Part shown: positions 29,425 through 35,434 of the stretch, one piece after another
How positions within the stretch are numbered: position 1 is the first letter of the stretch
How the letters are laid out: each line of letters begins with the position of its first letter
Assembly: GCA_947166655.1 (NCBI GenBank)
Contig: CAMVFC010000024.1
Coordinates: 1-35,434 of the forward strand
Reading direction: 5' to 3'
DNA from: an uncultured Prevotellaceae bacterium
GTDB lineage: Bacteria; Bacteroidota; Bacteroidia; Bacteroidales; Bacteroidaceae
Length of the DNA stretch: 35,434 nucleotides
Program-made: the position numbers and the translations under genes
The notes under the pieces: model-generated
Database searches by the model: none
Told to the model about the DNA's origin: nothing
What the model saw: the letters and a program-made list of their open reading frames with translations, nothing else

Positions 29425-29486
29425 AATGATGAATGACGAATGATGAATGATGAATGACGAGTGCGAATGATGAATCATTCATCATT
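29425..29486. repeat. Simple ATGAATGA/ATGATGAATG repeat ending in a perfect palindrome
   Basis: About 60 bases made of ATGAATGACGA and ATGATGAATG units. The right part, AATGATGAAT-C-ATTCATCATT (29466-29486), is a perfect palindrome around one base. It spans the gap from the nucleoside-hydrolase gene's stop to the glycosyltransferase start. Confidence 0.85.
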
Positions 29487-30540
29487 TTACATAAGCGTTA
29501 CACTTTCTGATTTTCTCCAGCATCGCCGCGTTCCACGCCGCATCGCCGGGCAGCTGGTAGCGGCAGTTTCCCGTAGCCGAGGGTGTAAAAACGGTTTCGG
29601 CATTCGGCGTGAGGCTGACGGTGCCGCGGTCAGAGATGGAAAAAGCCGCGTCGCCCTCTACGGCATGGATGACGGTCAGCGGATCCCACATCTTCTGTCC
29701 CGTGTTGCAGTTGCATGTCATGTAGACCTGCTTGATGGGGTGCACATCCGTCCACGTGATGTCACCTAAGACCTCTTCAGGCCTGTATTCTATCTCCTGT
29801 CCCACCTCCATCGGCGAGAACAGCATGTCGACGTCCTGCGGCCATAGGCGGAACAGGGTCTGTGCGAACGAGATGCCCTGCTTGAAGTTGAAGTCCGGTT
29901 CTGTCGCCTCGTCGAACACGCCCGCCATCAGGTACAGACACTTCACCTTCTGCCGCACCAGTTCCACACCGCTCAGCGGCGATATCTCGTCGGCTTCGGA
30001 AACTAACAGTCCTGTCAGTGCCGTCACGAAGCCGACAGAGCAGATGCTTACGGAGTGGTCGGGCTGTGCGGCCAGCAGTCGGCGGTACAGCTGCCAGCCG
30101 TCGGGCAGAGTAGAATAGTCGTCTATCGTGCGGCAGAACATTGGCTGCCCGTCGGAGGTGGTGTAGGAGGATAGCGCCTTGTAGTCAATCCACACCTTGG
30201 GCTGGCTGATGCCCTGTCGCACCAGTCCGATAGGCACGTCGCCGCGGCCGAAATAGGTGCTCATCACGTCAGCGACGGCAGCGCAGTCCTCGCCCTCGCG
30301 GTCCACCACCACGCCCAGCAGGCGGCATCGCCCTTCACGCTCATATTGGTAGAGCATCTCCATGGCAAAGAGGTCGTCGGTCGAGGAGCCGATGTCGGTA
30401 TCGAGTATGATAAGAGGGGTGTCCGTGTATACATTGTTATCGCCTTTGGCGGGAAAGTCCTCGTCGCAGCACGACGTTATCCACATCGTGGCACAAAGGA
30501 TCAGGGCGGCTGCCATCAGCCAGCGTCTCGTTCGTAGCAT
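29482..30540 (-). CDS. Nucleoside hydrolase-like lipoprotein
   Basis: 352 residues from ATG 30540. The N-terminus 'RRWLMAAALILCATMWITSC' is a lipoprotein signal with the acylated Cys at 24, so it is anchored in an envelope membrane. The body is an inosine/uridine-preferring nucleoside hydrolase domain, which splits ribonucleosides to base and ribose: 'IILDTDIGSSTDDLFAMEML' carries the Asp cluster for Ca2+, in the longer form (two extra residues) seen in Bacteroidota, and 'VYMTCNCNTGQKMWDPLTVIHAV' supplies the C-terminal Asp region. The track start at 30681 falls in the -33 element and is rejected. It probably salvages nucleosides outside the cytoplasm. Ends inside the edge of the simple repeat. 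Confidence 0.85.
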   Translation of the reverse strand: MLRTRRWLMAAALILCATMWITSCCDEDFPAKGDNNVYTDTPLIILDTDIGSSTDDLFAMEMLYQYEREGRCRLLGVVVDREGEDCAAVADVMSTYFGRGDVPIGLVRQGISQPKVWIDYKALSSYTTSDGQPMFCRTIDDYSTLPDGWQLYRRLLAAQPDHSVSICSVGFVTALTGLLVSEADEISPLSGVELVRQKVKCLYLMAGVFDEATEPDFNFKQGISFAQTLFRLWPQDVDMLFSPMEVGQEIEYRPEEVLGDITWTDVHPIKQVYMTCNCNTGQKMWDPLTVIHAVEGDAAFSISDRGTVSLTPNAETVFTPSATGNCRYQLPGDAAWNAAMLEKIRKCNAYVK

Positions 30541-30650
30541 GTTTTTGGGGATATGTTTAATCAGCGTAATCTGTGGTACAGGAGAACTTGCGAAAGTTAT
30601 TTTATTCTTTTCTATTCTGGTGCCGTCCAACCTCATGCCAGTCGGCGATG

Positions 30651-30682
30651 CAAAGATAACACATTTGCCGCGAGTTTGCAAA
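30651..30682 (-). promoter_or_regulatory. Promoter for the nucleoside hydrolase gene
   Basis: Minus-strand TTTG (30679-30682), 20-base spacer, TATCTTTG (30651-30658): perfect consensus. The RNA start would lie about 100 bases before the ATG at 30540, leaving a noticeable untranslated leader. Confidence 0.8.
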
Positions 30683-30923: not shown

Positions 30924-31997
30924 CTACGGGACAATAATCATCTTTTTTCCGTCTTTGACAATGATTCCTTTCTGACCGTTACCAACCTTCATCCCATTCA
31001 TGGCATATCCGTGGGGAGCCTCGCCCGCAGAGACGGTCTTCATGGGATGTACGCCAGAGGTGCCTCCGTCGACTTCTACGCGGATGCTTCCCGTGAGGTT
31101 GCGGATATTATCGGTACCCTGCGTGGCCTGACCGAGAATATAGAGTCCACTGTAGCGACTAGCTGCACCGTAGTACAGCACGACGTTTCCCCAGGGCGAG
31201 AACAGCGCCAGCGTCCCGACCGGACAGTCCCCCTCGATACAGTCGGCATCATAGCTGACAGCCGTAGGAGTATAGAAGATCTTCTCGTTGTTTCCGTAGT
31301 CCTCCACCTTCACATCCAGGGGAAGCATCTGATAGAGCGACTTGGCGGCAGTGGTCTCGTTTAACGCGAAGACGACGGTGTTCGTGCCATCGGAAACCCG
31401 TATCTTCATCCCATCCGTGGCACCCTTGTCCGTAAAGTTGATTTTTTGCAGCCATTCGCTGATGAGCGAGGCCGCATTGCCGACCTGCGAGGAGCGAATC
31501 CACAGGCTCTGACCGTAGTAGACTCCGTCGGGAACCTGTCGGTGGCAGTCTGTTTCCACGCCGCTGATGCCGCTGCTGGCACTCGAAACGATCAGTCCGA
31601 TGTTCTTGCCGGCCATCTGAGCGCCGTAGTTGAACAGGAAGGTCTGCATCGGGGCTGCCATTTGGCTCCACCACAGCGGAGTGACGACGATGATGTTCTG
31701 ATAGTCGCTCAGCGAGATGTTGATGGGGTCGATGGCGGGGTAGCTCGCGGCATCGTTGGGGTTCGCCTTGATGGCATTGAGCAGTTGCTTGCCGAGCGCA
31801 TAGTTGTTCGCCTCGTAGCGCAGGCCTTTCTCTGCGGGCTGAATCTCCAGCACGTCGGCCGTCATCTGATTTGTTAGTGCATGGGTGATGGCCTTGCAGT
31901 TGCCCGTGTAGCTGTAGTAGACCACCAGCGTCTTTGCCTGAAGCGCCGCAAGGAAGGCGTTCAGCAGCAGGGCGATGAATAGGAGTGTTTTCTTCAT
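30924..31997 (-). CDS. Exported flavodoxin-cyclophilin-like fusion protein
   Basis: 357 residues from ATG 31997 (track start 32009 is GTG). Residues 1-21 are a Sec signal ('LLFIALLLNAFLAALQA'). Residues about 22-185 are a flavodoxin_4-type domain with the FMN phosphate loop 'YYSYTGNCKAIT' and 'VVTPLWWSQMAAPMQTFL'. Residues about 200-315 are a cyclophilin-like beta barrel ('MKIRVSDGTNTVVFALNETTAAKSL', 'GTLALFSPWGNVVLYYG'). The tail 'GYAMNGMKVGNGQKGIIVKDGKK' resembles C-terminal segments common on secreted Prevotella/Bacteroides proteins. A flavodoxin outside the cytoplasm is unusual: FMN would have to be taken up in the periplasm or carried through. Last gene of a three-gene operon, 16 bp behind the cupin-CMD gene. 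Confidence 0.85.
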   Translation of the reverse strand: MKKTLLFIALLLNAFLAALQAKTLVVYYSYTGNCKAITHALTNQMTADVLEIQPAEKGLRYEANNYALGKQLLNAIKANPNDAASYPAIDPINISLSDYQNIIVVTPLWWSQMAAPMQTFLFNYGAQMAGKNIGLIVSSASSGISGVETDCHRQVPDGVYYGQSLWIRSSQVGNAASLISEWLQKINFTDKGATDGMKIRVSDGTNTVVFALNETTAAKSLYQMLPLDVKVEDYGNNEKIFYTPTAVSYDADCIEGDCPVGTLALFSPWGNVVLYYGAASRYSGLYILGQATQGTDNIRNLTGSIRVEVDGGTSGVHPMKTVSAGEAPHGYAMNGMKVGNGQKGIIVKDGKKMIIVP

Positions 31998-32013
31998 AGT
32001 TGCAGTCACAATT

Positions 32014-33270
32014 TTATTTGTTAGTCTCTACGCTTCGAATGCAACTGAGGGCATTGAGCGTGCGGGGATAGCCGATGAACGGAAGGTTGGAAGAGATGAC
32101 AGCGATGAGCATGTCCTTGTCGTTGCCCACGTGGTAATTGCCGGCGATGTGCCCTTTGAGCTGTGGCTCGCATCCGCCCTGGGCGACAAGGAAACAGAAG
32201 GTGATCAGTTCGCGCATCTTTAGGTCAAGACCCGTGCGGGTGTAGTAATCGCCGAAGCAGTTGTCGGCCAGCCAGTGGTTAATGTGTCGGCTATCCTCCG
32301 GTCCCGACTTCCAGAAGTCACGCATCCCCTCGCCGAAGCAGCCTACCTGCGCCTCGGTGCCGGCCCCGCGGCGGGTGGCCAGGGTGGTGGTCTGCTGCGA
32401 AGCCAGGGGCAGGGCGATGCCACGGGCTGTAAAAACATCGTTGGTGGCAGTCAGGAATGGTCGGACACGCCCCATGCCCAGATAGGCCGTGGCCTGATAG
32501 ACGATTTCCTTCACCTCAACGGGTGTCACGCCCTTGTCTAACGCTTCAGGCAGCAGGTCGCGGTATTCGTCAATGCTCTGACAGCCTAACAGCGTGGCCA
32601 GATAGCCGATATAGCGGGTGCGGTCGTCGAGGCGGGTCTTCACCTGTTCCGCCACCTCGCCGAAGGCAAAGGCTTCGAATCGCTGAAGGTATTCCGCATC
32701 GGCGACGCTGAGCATCGCACTGCTGGCGGGCAGCTTGTCGTACTCCGCATCCGCGACCGCTTCCAGCCACTCGTTGGAAGCGCCCTCTTCGACCTTAGTC
32801 ATATAGGTGAGGTGCTGCATCCACGAGTCCTTGGCGGCTCCGTGCCAGTGCTTCGCCTCGGCAGGGATGGCAACCACTACGCCCGGGCGCAGCACCACAG
32901 GCTCCTTGCCCTCCTCGACGTACCAGCCGCAGCCTGCCACGCAAACGAGCACCTGCACCGACTTGTGGTGGATGTGCCAGTTGTTGCGGCAGCGCGGCTC
33001 GAAGGTCACGTTCACGGGGCCGCCGTTCTCGGCATCGAGCGGGGCCAGATAGCTGTTGCCGATAAAGTACTGAGCATACGCCGTGTTCAGCTCGCCCTTA
33101 GGCCATACGCTGAAATCTACGTTGCAAAAAGTTTCTTCGTTACCTCGCCAGGGCATAGCGCCTGTTTTCTGCTCTTCTGGCTGATTTAGTTCATTCTCTT
33201 TCATGTTGTCTTGTGCATTTATCTGCGCCACTGCCAGGAGCAGCGCAATGACAGTCGTTATTATTCTCAT
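32014..33270 (-). CDS. Exported cupin plus carboxymuconolactone decarboxylase (CMD) family protein
   Basis: 418 residues with signal peptide (1-19, 'IITTVIALLLAVAQINA'). A cupin barrel covers about 60-155, with metal ligands in 'NNWHIHHKS' (His99, 101, 102) and 'AKHWHGA' (His141, 143). Two CMD-type helical domains follow, about 190-280 ('YIGYLATLLGCQSIDEY', 'VEVKEIVYQATAYLGMGRV') and about 330-405 ('KMRELITFCFLVAQGGCEPQLKGHI'). The second keeps one Cys and the His but not an AhpD-type CxxC. Such fusions are linked to aromatic or quinone-like substrates, but the reaction is unknown here. 3 bp behind the amidohydrolase, 16 bp ahead of the flavodoxin. Confidence 0.87.
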   Translation of the reverse strand: MRIITTVIALLLAVAQINAQDNMKENELNQPEEQKTGAMPWRGNEETFCNVDFSVWPKGELNTAYAQYFIGNSYLAPLDAENGGPVNVTFEPRCRNNWHIHHKSVQVLVCVAGCGWYVEEGKEPVVLRPGVVVAIPAEAKHWHGAAKDSWMQHLTYMTKVEEGASNEWLEAVADAEYDKLPASSAMLSVADAEYLQRFEAFAFGEVAEQVKTRLDDRTRYIGYLATLLGCQSIDEYRDLLPEALDKGVTPVEVKEIVYQATAYLGMGRVRPFLTATNDVFTARGIALPLASQQTTTLATRRGAGTEAQVGCFGEGMRDFWKSGPEDSRHINHWLADNCFGDYYTRTGLDLKMRELITFCFLVAQGGCEPQLKGHIAGNYHVGNDKDMLIAVISSNLPFIGYPRTLNALSCIRSVETNK

Positions 33271-33273
33271 CTG

Positions 33274-34683
33274 TTATCTCTGTTTCTTGAATATCATGTT
33301 CATGGCTGCGGGGTCGAGCGGCTGCATGGTGGGCAGTCGAAGGCTTTTCACCATGTGCATCGTACCCTGTTTATACTTCTGGAAATGTTCGGTCTTCAGA
33401 TGCTGCTGATAAGCTTCCTCGGAAGCATAAATCTCGAGGATGCGAATCTGAGTGGAGTCCTCGGCGCTCTGCATGGGGAAGAGGCAGACGACGCCCGGCT
33501 CACGCTCCACGCTCTGGCGGTCCACCTCGTTGGCAAAGGACAGATATTCTTCCAGATACTGCGGATACACTTCTATCTCAGCCAGGCGACAAAGAAGTGT
33601 CCCGGCAGACTCACCCCCGACGTTATCCGATATCAACTTCTCCGCGTTCTTGTACAGAATCATCTCCTTGAAAGGTGAGAGGTCGGGTTCAGTCGAAAGA
33701 TACTGCTTCATGCGCTGCAAACCCTGGGTGAGCACCTGCGGAGACACATAGGGATAATCGGAACCATAGAGCAGATGGTCGGGCGTAGTGATGGTAAGCA
33801 GCATGCGGATGACTTCGGGCGAGTGTGCACCGGCGAGGTCATAGTATAGCGCAGCAAGATTCTTCTCCCAATCTATTTCACCTACCATACCGTTCTTTTG
33901 CATCACTGCGGCCAGAGATTTCATCCGAGGCACGGCCAGCGGCAGATAGGCTCCGCAATGGGGCACCACCACCTTTACATTCGGATAGCGCGCCAGCACG
34001 TTGCGCGAAATCATGTTCGCGACGGCGCGCGTGGTCTCCGAGAGATATTCCTGCATAGCCAGTGGCGTCTGTCGCATCACCTGACGGTTGACAGGTTCTG
34101 GCCGGTGGGGATGCAGTATCACCATCGCCCTACGCGCATTGAGCACCGAGAAGAGCGTGTCCAGTTCCGGCGCGCCGAGATACTGCCCGTCGGCGTAGAC
34201 TTCGTCCGTCACGTCCCGCCCATTCCGTCGAGCTTGTCGGCTCACGCAGCTCCGAACGTTCGTAGCCAGTTTGATGCCGTCGGCCTTCAGCGTGTCAAGC
34301 GCATAGACGGCCTCGCGGATGGCAGCATCGACATCGGGCAGCGGCAAGGAGGCGCAGAACAGGAATCGCCCCGGATGCTCCTGCTTCAGCTTTGCGGCGG
34401 CCTCGTTGGTGCGCCTCACGACTTCTGCAGATGACGGCTGCGGAGCCGCCAGCGTCAGCACCGATGTCTCGATGCCCGCTTCGTCCATCCAGCGCAGATG
34501 CGCCTCCGCATCATACTTCGGTAAGGGGAAACCCTCGTCCATCAGCCGCCCCTCGCCATCGAGAGCCGACAGGAACTCTGGAGTGATGATGTGGCTGTGC
34601 ATGTCTATCACGCCCTGAGCTTTCGCATCAGTCCCTGCCATCAGCGGCAACAGCAACAGTGGTAAATAGTTGTGGCGTATCAT
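33274..34683 (-). CDS. Exported amidohydrolase (ACMSD-like) with C-terminal ABM monooxygenase-like domain
   Basis: 469 residues from ATG 34683; the track start at 34728 is a GTG inside the -7 box. Signal peptide about 1-22 ('YLPLLLLPLMAGTDAKA'). The TIM-barrel metal hydrolase of the amidohydrolase-2/ACMSD group covers about 24-345: 'IDMHSHI' gives the HxH pair (His29, His31), 'MVILHPHRPE' and 'VVPHCGAYLP' the further His, and 'LLYGSDYPYV' the Asp. About residues 360-469 form an antibiotic-biosynthesis-monooxygenase (ABM) ferredoxin-like domain ('RLAEIEVYPQYLEEYLSFANEVD', 'IRILEIYASEEAYQQHLKTEHF'). ACMSD-like enzymes decarboxylate or hydrolyse aromatic-derived acids; ABM domains oxidise polycyclic phenols without cofactor. 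First gene of the exported three-gene operon. Confidence 0.87.
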   Translation of the reverse strand: MIRHNYLPLLLLPLMAGTDAKAQGVIDMHSHIITPEFLSALDGEGRLMDEGFPLPKYDAEAHLRWMDEAGIETSVLTLAAPQPSSAEVVRRTNEAAAKLKQEHPGRFLFCASLPLPDVDAAIREAVYALDTLKADGIKLATNVRSCVSRQARRNGRDVTDEVYADGQYLGAPELDTLFSVLNARRAMVILHPHRPEPVNRQVMRQTPLAMQEYLSETTRAVANMISRNVLARYPNVKVVVPHCGAYLPLAVPRMKSLAAVMQKNGMVGEIDWEKNLAALYYDLAGAHSPEVIRMLLTITTPDHLLYGSDYPYVSPQVLTQGLQRMKQYLSTEPDLSPFKEMILYKNAEKLISDNVGGESAGTLLCRLAEIEVYPQYLEEYLSFANEVDRQSVEREPGVVCLFPMQSAEDSTQIRILEIYASEEAYQQHLKTEHFQKYKQGTMHMVKSLRLPTMQPLDPAAMNMIFKKQR

Positions 34684-34727
34684 TCTTCGTAAACGATTTA
34701 AGATGTCATTTTTTATATTAGACGGCA

Positions 34728-34735
34728 CAAAGATA
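34728..34735 (-). promoter_or_regulatory. -7 promoter element for the exported three-gene operon
   Basis: Minus-strand TATCTTTG, a perfect TAnnTTTG match about 45 bases before the ATG at 34683. The nearest upstream TTG on that strand is 27 bases away, too far, so the promoter may need an activator. Confidence 0.6.
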
Positions 34736-35126: not shown

Positions 35127-35344
35127 AAGAACCGCAGATTAAACAGATTCCGGACTCTCCCCCCCGCCCTCCCTAAAGGGAGGGAGCAGTTACTTGTAAA
35201 AACAGAGGACGTGGTAATCCTGCTCTTGTTTGGTAACCGCTCCCTCCCTTTAGGGTGCGAGGAAGACGGGACTGAGTGTTCCGTCTGGACTCGTTCGGGG
35301 GAGAGTCCAGGGAGAGTCCGGAATCTGTTTAATCTGTGGTTCTT
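35127..35344. mobile_element. 218-bp nested palindromic element (MITE-like)
   Basis: Outer arms 35127-35160 and 35311-35344 are inverted copies with 33 of 34 bases matching (both contain CAGATTAAACAGATTCCGGA). Inner arms 35171-35193 and 35233-35255 match at 22 of 23 bases. Further hairpins are CCCTCCCT-AA-AGGGAGGG (35168-35185) and CTGGACTC/GAGTCCAG (35285-35310). No ORF or transposase. I see no clear target-site duplication. One inner segment is shared with the 28463-28543 palindrome. Confidence 0.7.
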
Positions 35345-35347
35345 TGT

Positions 35348-35434
35348 CACTTTTGCGCAAAACTCTTGGCACTTTTCGTGAAAACTCTTGACACTTTTGG
35401 TCAAAACCCTTGGCAGTTTCGGTCGAAACCCTTA
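35348..35434. repeat. 22-bp tandem array running off the right edge (4 units visible)
   Basis: Units begin at 35348, 35370, 35392 and 35414, exactly 22 bases apart, each reading roughly CACTTTT-nnnn-AAAACYCTTGR. The core of each unit is itself a short palindrome (TTTTGCGCAAAA, TTTTCGTGAAAA, TTTTGGTCAAAA, TTTCGGTCGAAA). The fourth unit is cut by the window end, so the total number is unknown. Confidence 0.9.

Follow-up and report, generated by a model that had tools for sequence, protein, structure and literature searches.

The window, that is, the whole stretch of DNA analyzed, is an entire contig of 35,434 bp from a 2.9-Mb metagenome assembly that is 82% complete. The nearest relatives of its genes belong to Prevotellaceae, many of them of rumen origin. 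On the minus strand it carries three consecutive open reading frames, here called A, B, and C, which with their widest starts span positions 33,274–34,728, 32,014–33,270, and 30,924–32,009, respectively. As a previous sequence-only reading of this DNA had reported, A and B are separated by 3 bp, and B and C by 16 bp, the latter when C is started at ATG 31,997; its domain assignments for all three products also held, with Pfam matches above curated cut-offs. That reading had further proposed one shared -7 box. A motif scan does place a Bacteroidetes -7 box (TATCTTTG) upstream of A (34,728–34,735, minus strand), but the motif is common by chance (18 occurrences of TAnnTTTG in the window versus 11.3 expected), and no -33 TTTG was seen at the usual spacing from it. 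Because this box overlaps GTG 34,728, the most likely start of A is ATG 34,683, which agrees with its homologs; the GTG was therefore rejected. For C, GTG 32,009 was likewise rejected in favor of ATG 31,997. A second -7 box (30,651–30,658) precedes the neighboring nucleoside-hydrolase-like gene, and therefore the transcription unit probably ends with C. The product of this neighbor (29,482–30,681) matches IU_nuc_hydro with 32.6 bits, just under the cut-off of 34.2. Promoter and terminator scans of the window were at chance level, and an Rfam scan returned tRNAs only. Close to the contig end lie nested inverted repeats (35,127–35,344 and 35,164–35,262) around CTCCCTTTAGGGAGGG; a similar sequence is apparently translated in an ORF of contig C12 of the same genome, which suggests a dispersed intergenic repeat. 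The inverted repeats are followed by three head-to-tail copies of a 22-bp unit (TTGnCACTTTTnnnnAAAACyC; 35,344–35,409).

From its ORF and Pfam matches, A (33,274–34,683, minus strand, as are all features below; 469 residues from ATG 34,683) is predicted to be an exported Amidohydro_2 protein, with the ACMSD-type metal hydrolase/decarboxylase fold, fused to an ABM domain. Homolog alignment and rule-based calls place a Sec signal peptide at residues 1–22 (34,618–34,683), with the sequence MIRHNYLPLLLLPLMAGTDAKA, cleavage at AKA/Q, and QG following; the residues at the cleavage site, A22 and Q23, are invariant in 15 homologs. The Amidohydro_2 domain (33,634–34,608; 101.7 bits) has 2f6k as its best solved relative. 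The ABM domain (33,370–33,588; 48.6 bits) matches 3kkf and is missing from the A homologs at loci L036, L041, and L042. Also invariant in 15 homologs are H29, H31, H191, H242, and D309 (HxH, H, H, D), which we take to be the metal ligands of the ACMSD group. A thus shares conserved ligands with the ACMSD/resorcylate decarboxylase group of Amidohydro_2 (4ign, 2dvt) and with 2f6k, but differs from them in being exported and fused to ABM.

The ORF, Pfam matches, and relatives of B (32,014–33,270; 418 residues) identify it as an exported fusion of a Mn-type cupin with a double CMD domain. Comparison with homologs gives a Sec signal peptide at residues 1–19 (33,214–33,270) with cleavage at INA/Q. 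In the cupin domain (Cupin_2, 27.9 bits; 32,827–33,009), H99, H102, Q106, and H141 are invariant in 18 homologs. Pfam CMD matches twice (75.3 bits), in a first domain with approximate ends (32,461–32,697) and in a second (32,041–32,277) in which E368, Q370, and H374 are invariant. The catalytic CxxC pair is absent from both, and AhpD peroxidase chemistry was rejected for B on this ground. The solved relatives are 2f4p and hydroxynitrile lyases for the cupin, and 4g9q and 2af7 as the closest for CMD. B has in common with the Mn-dependent (R)-hydroxynitrile lyase cupins (4uxa, 4bif, 8oz8; 31%–32% identity) the fold and the His/Gln ligand pattern; unlike them, it has a one-residue insertion in the HxH motif, is exported, is fused to CMD, and falls under the family cut-off (100.6 of 140 bits for the (R)-mandelonitrile lyase equivalog NF049940). 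Its score is also below the NCBIfam equivalog cut-off for PcaC, 4-carboxymuconolactone decarboxylase (44 of 155.7 bits). Elsewhere in the genome, contig C11 encodes an unexported CMD paralog (L221:9590-10180) that is 56% identical to exported CMD proteins from clusters of relatives, and therefore the same enzyme type would occur in two compartments.

Flavodoxins are textbook cytosolic electron carriers. C (30,924–31,997; 357 residues from ATG 31,997) is, by ORF, Pfam, alignment, and AlphaFold model, a predicted exported flavodoxin-cyclophilin-like protein with a short C-terminal tail of the type IX secretion system (T9SS) kind. A rule-based call and alignment place its Sec signal peptide at residues 1–21 (31,935–31,997), with cleavage at LQA/K. 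It is followed by a Flavodoxin_4 domain of FMN fold (31,503–31,934; 51 bits, cut-off 24), the sole match to this family in the genome; the best fold matches include the FMN-bound 3klb and 3edo. The cyclophilin part (31,071–31,388) is recognized by homology to Cyclophil_like2 (82.9 bits) and by a TM1367-like fold retrieved in the fold search, and its PPIase activity is putative. The AlphaFold models (mean pLDDT 72.7 and 68.9, with shallow alignments) are used here for fold-level statements. In the model of C, a linker and short strands make up the end, the same arrangement as described for short T9SS C-terminal domains (CTDs) (PMC11969387).

To ask how general these signals are, we called genes in 41 loci (the window and 40 related regions), clustered their products, and predicted signal peptides with a simple home-made rule rather than SignalP. 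Of 105 proteins belonging to the exported families, 99 had a signal: flavodoxins (32/33), amidohydrolases (25/27), CMD proteins with or without cupin (17/18), alpha/beta hydrolases (10/10), ABM proteins (6/7), and cupins (3/4). Among the regulators and NAD(P)H enzymes encoded in these clusters, signals were called in 5 of 84 (AraC 0/20, Fe-ADH 0/11, AKR 1/21, FMN_red 3/14, Flavin_Reduct 1/9), and shuffled controls gave zero to one call per family. The few Bacteroidales proteins labeled as having no signal are calling errors (L047) or truncations (L043). In Bacteroidetes, Gln is found at position +1 after signal peptidase I (SPI) cleavage (PMC5837995); among SPI calls, 22 of 23 amidohydrolases and all 17 CMD proteins follow this rule, as do A and B themselves, whereas C has Lys at +1. 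The Sec signals that the sequence-only reading had noticed on each product (AKA/Q, INA/Q, and LQA/K) are thus conserved in homologs, and at L041, where the A-B-C order recurs, every gene carries one; that reading had named the same order without signals as the finding that would speak against export, and L041 shows the opposite. That the predicted export of A, B, and C, whose enzyme types usually stay in the cytoplasm, is real and family-specific is well supported. In a tree of CMD proteins, the exported Bacteroidales sequences cluster together, separately from the cytosolic proteins of Bacillota; there is a second deep Bacteroidales group, again exported, and two Desulfovibrio proteins with twin-arginine (Tat) signals fall among the Bacillota ones (L078:7866-8738 and L092:5234-6112). 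By this tree, the predicted export of CMD proteins has more than one origin. An aldo/keto reductase at L078 (6698-7837) also bears a Tat signal, and the FMN_red proteins at L187:12267, L188:12775, and L182:18205 begin with Tat-like signals of the RR or R type, which sets them apart from their cytosolic relatives.

What is new here is the T9SS short-CTD tail on the flavodoxin-cyclophilin protein C, which the sequence-only reading had overlooked. The tail, GVHPMKTVSAGEAPHGYAMNGMKVGNGQKGIIVKDGKKMIIVP (30,927–31,055), comprises 43 residues counted from the inferred cut, and was delimited with a tail HMM, alignment, and comparison with published short CTDs. Long flavodoxin-cyclophilin proteins from T9SS-bearing genomes have a common C-terminal pattern, YxLNGQxVxNPxKGIYIKNGKKVxL. 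The HMM, built from 13 tails of C and its homologs, matches C with an E-value of 8.9e-13, a value that is partly circular since C is in the HMM; the other matches and the correlation with Sov described below are not. In the genome from which the window derives, the HMM hits 45 places at E <= 0.01, of which C is one and about 44 are others; among the first 30, every match with a readable ORF end runs up to the stop codon. The same genome encodes Sov/SprA, PorU (980 bits), and PorV (425 bits). Across 24 genomes, a small sample of mutually related relatives, the tail is present in 17 of 18 that have Sov and in none of six that lack it; the one Sov-positive genome without a tail above threshold is G007. 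We found 18 flavodoxin-family proteins with the tail, most of them flavodoxin-cyclophilin fusions. In the Sov-negative genome G054, the fusion protein stops at the point where the tail would begin; the copy of G097 has no tail either.

The tail of C resembles the short sorting domains described for T9SS cargo of P. intermedia, which have 40–55 residues, three strands, and Ile at +2 of the cleavage site (PMC11969387). As with that cargo, C combines an N-terminal Sec signal and a terminal tail of this length with PorV, PorU, and Sov in the genome; it differs in having Val at +2 of a cleavage site inferred from sequence, where its homolog at L192 and many others have Ile. The main text of that study makes no mention of flavodoxin or cyclophilin. 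The curated T9SS type A sorting domains TIGR04183 and PF18962 have no match in C, and TIGR04183 is above its cut-off in flavodoxin-only relatives (L255, L257, L198, and L182). One of these, the flavodoxin at L182:5594-6391, is a single exception in that it has the TIGR04183 domain although no Sov/SprA was found in its genome, G112. Copies in Sov-negative genomes are lipoproteins whose Cys is followed by acidic residues (CEDDEP, CSPDEDE), which resemble, in a loose comparison, surface export signals (PMC5080379). Several flavodoxin-cyclophilin homologs (L210, L172, L176, and others) seemingly have a lipobox in addition to a T9SS tail, and such a twofold address is unusual. An extracytoplasmic flavodoxin in a Bacteroidetes, as we propose for C, has a possible counterpart in an outer-membrane-vesicle flavodoxin of Tannerella forsythia (21.1 kDa, predicted to be periplasmic, location P; PMC4604654). 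Literature searches on this gene set, on exported flavodoxins, on T9SS flavodoxin cargo, and on flavin electron transfer in Prevotella yielded no account of the system or of a flavodoxin carried by T9SS. The tail alters the earlier proposal that the three proteins constitute a periplasmic pathway: A and B are probably periplasmic, as that proposal had it, but C is more likely located on the cell surface.

The association of these genes goes beyond chance. Of 301 genomes of the family, 51 have A and 54 have C, and 29 have both, against nine expected; in 22 of the latter, A-like and C-like genes lie at most 10 kb apart (0.2 expected by chance). The claim that the three genes form a complete set was too strong. 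The full A-B-C order was found only once more (L041, whose A is without ABM), and otherwise we observed A-B pairs (L035, L036, L038, L042, L044, and L060) or B-C pairs (L032 and L003). In other relatives, pieces of A, B, and C sit in larger clusters together with a divergent AraC regulator, aldo/keto reductases, Fe-ADH, FMN and flavin reductases, and lipoprotein alpha/beta hydrolases, with gene order and content differing between loci. No regulator or cytosolic partner genes were found near the operon in the window, and the AraC homolog encoded by the same genome (contig C12) has no cluster genes adjoining it. The same families also come close together in Bacillota, in cytosolic cupin/double-CMD/flavodoxin/AKR groups (L059, L067, L073, and L100) whose CMD part is 60%–68% identical; there they are separate proteins without signals, whereas here cupin and two CMD domains are fused and exported. 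The E. coli YqhC-YqhD/DkgA aldehyde-response regulon (compare PMC8262776) likewise joins an AraC regulator with Fe-ADH and aldo/keto reductases. The likeness is by gene families only; the exported hydrolase, cupin, CMD, and flavodoxin are additional to that regulon, and the operon in the window has no adjoining AraC gene. In relatives, the exported enzymes would be backed by the cytosolic NAD(P)H enzymes (AKR, Fe-ADH, flavin and FMN reductases). This juxtaposition, together with the divergent AraC regulator, gives the clusters the look of a two-compartment electrophile/redox response, and the wider cluster (AraC, AKR, Fe-ADH, flavin reductase) has more the appearance of a module for electrophile/redox response than of a catabolic pathway.

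Taking together the domains, signals, tail, T9SS genes, and gene clustering, all of which can be read in the DNA itself, we suggest that the three genes are transcribed as one unit and encode an enzyme module of the envelope with C on the surface and a role in electrophile/redox chemistry; we put the probability of this at roughly 60%. Sec would carry A, B, and C over the inner membrane. A, with its metal-dependent amidohydrolase/decarboxylase fold and ABM, and B, with its Mn-type cupin and PcaC-like double CMD, lack any additional address and would most likely stay as soluble periplasmic enzymes. C would proceed to the surface by T9SS: PorV probably recognizes its 43-residue tail, the PorU sortase probably cleaves it, and the resulting mature flavodoxin would probably be anchored to surface LPS. 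The probable substrates that the three jointly convert at the envelope are reactive carbonyl-, quinone-, or aromatic-derived compounds. From these features we infer the final location, FMN loading, substrate, regulation, and chemistry of the module, the last putatively detoxification of reactive carbonyls or quinones. Points that count against this reading are the simple signal rule, the Lys after the signal cleavage site of C and the Val at +2 of its tail site, the missing TIGR04183 and PF18962 matches to that tail, the homologs with a lipobox as well as a tail, the exceptions G007 and G112, and surroundings of the operon that supply neither regulator nor cytosolic partners.

Other explanations account for parts of these data. 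We consider it unlikely, yet the best placed of them, that the genes form an operon for stress caused by oxidants from host or diet, such as HOCl and peroxides, with the CMD domains acting as AhpD-like peroxidases. AraC regulators do flank the clusters of relatives, and there are precedents in the AraC-family RclR of P. aeruginosa, which controls the putative peroxiredoxin RclX, and in a CMD gene of Burkholderia induced by HOCl (PMC7464077). Against this, both CMD domains of B are devoid of the AhpD CxxC pair, and a thiol partner system was not seen nearby.

The sequence-only reading had favored a periplasmic pathway for an aromatic or quinone-like compound. Export of all three proteins agrees with it, and in its explicit form the three would be soluble periplasmic enzymes of one catabolic route for such a compound from diet or host, the tail of C having no sorting function. 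The families are those of aromatic-acid pathways (CMD and the relatives of ACMSD and resorcylate decarboxylase), and relatives have exported ABM and dienelactone-hydrolase-like lipoproteins. However, the C-type tail tracks T9SS across genomes, B is far under the PcaC cut-off and also below that of mandelonitrile lyase, no ring-cleaving or upstream catabolic enzyme appears among the recurring cluster genes, and content varies by locus, unlike a fixed pathway. We regard this route as improbable. Equally improbable, in our estimate, is that the module makes or recycles a redox mediator, with the surface flavodoxin as electron donor for quinones, humics, metals, or similar acceptors outside the cell. 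The nearest solved relatives of C bind FMN, and, depending on the lineage, the protein appears to be directed to the surface either by a T9SS tail or by the acidic start of a lipoprotein; the weak points are the electron donor that a surface flavodoxin would need (a multiheme cytochrome or similar) and the lack of extracellular NAD(P)H. Finally, the signals could be weak or the starts misplaced and the proteins cytosolic redox enzymes, like the Bacillota relatives of the CMD part and the unexported paralog on contig C11, but this is very improbable given that the signals of A are conserved, with A/Q cleavage invariant over 15 loci, that partner families are nearly devoid of signals, and that lipoprotein, Sec, and Tat versions occur among relatives.

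Returning to the envelope module, a broader and more tentative proposal is that Bacteroidales place a flavodoxin, often with a cyclophilin-like domain, outside the cell by a short T9SS tail, by a type A T9SS tail, or, in species lacking T9SS, by an acidic surface-lipoprotein signal. There it might act as a surface redox enzyme or electron carrier along with periplasmic enzymes of the same operon, and would constitute a new extracytoplasmic flavin system; we find this possible, if rather doubtful. If true, Bacteroidales would run flavin-based redox reactions extracellularly, at the site where oxidants, quinones, and plant phenolics are encountered in gut or rumen, and would do so with a conserved surface flavodoxin that is inherited together with exported decarboxylase-, cupin-, and CMD-type enzymes. 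Such a flavodoxin would also widen the cargo range of T9SS to a redox protein. The wider cluster is a concrete candidate for the means by which these bacteria deal with reactive electrophiles ahead of their entry into the cell.
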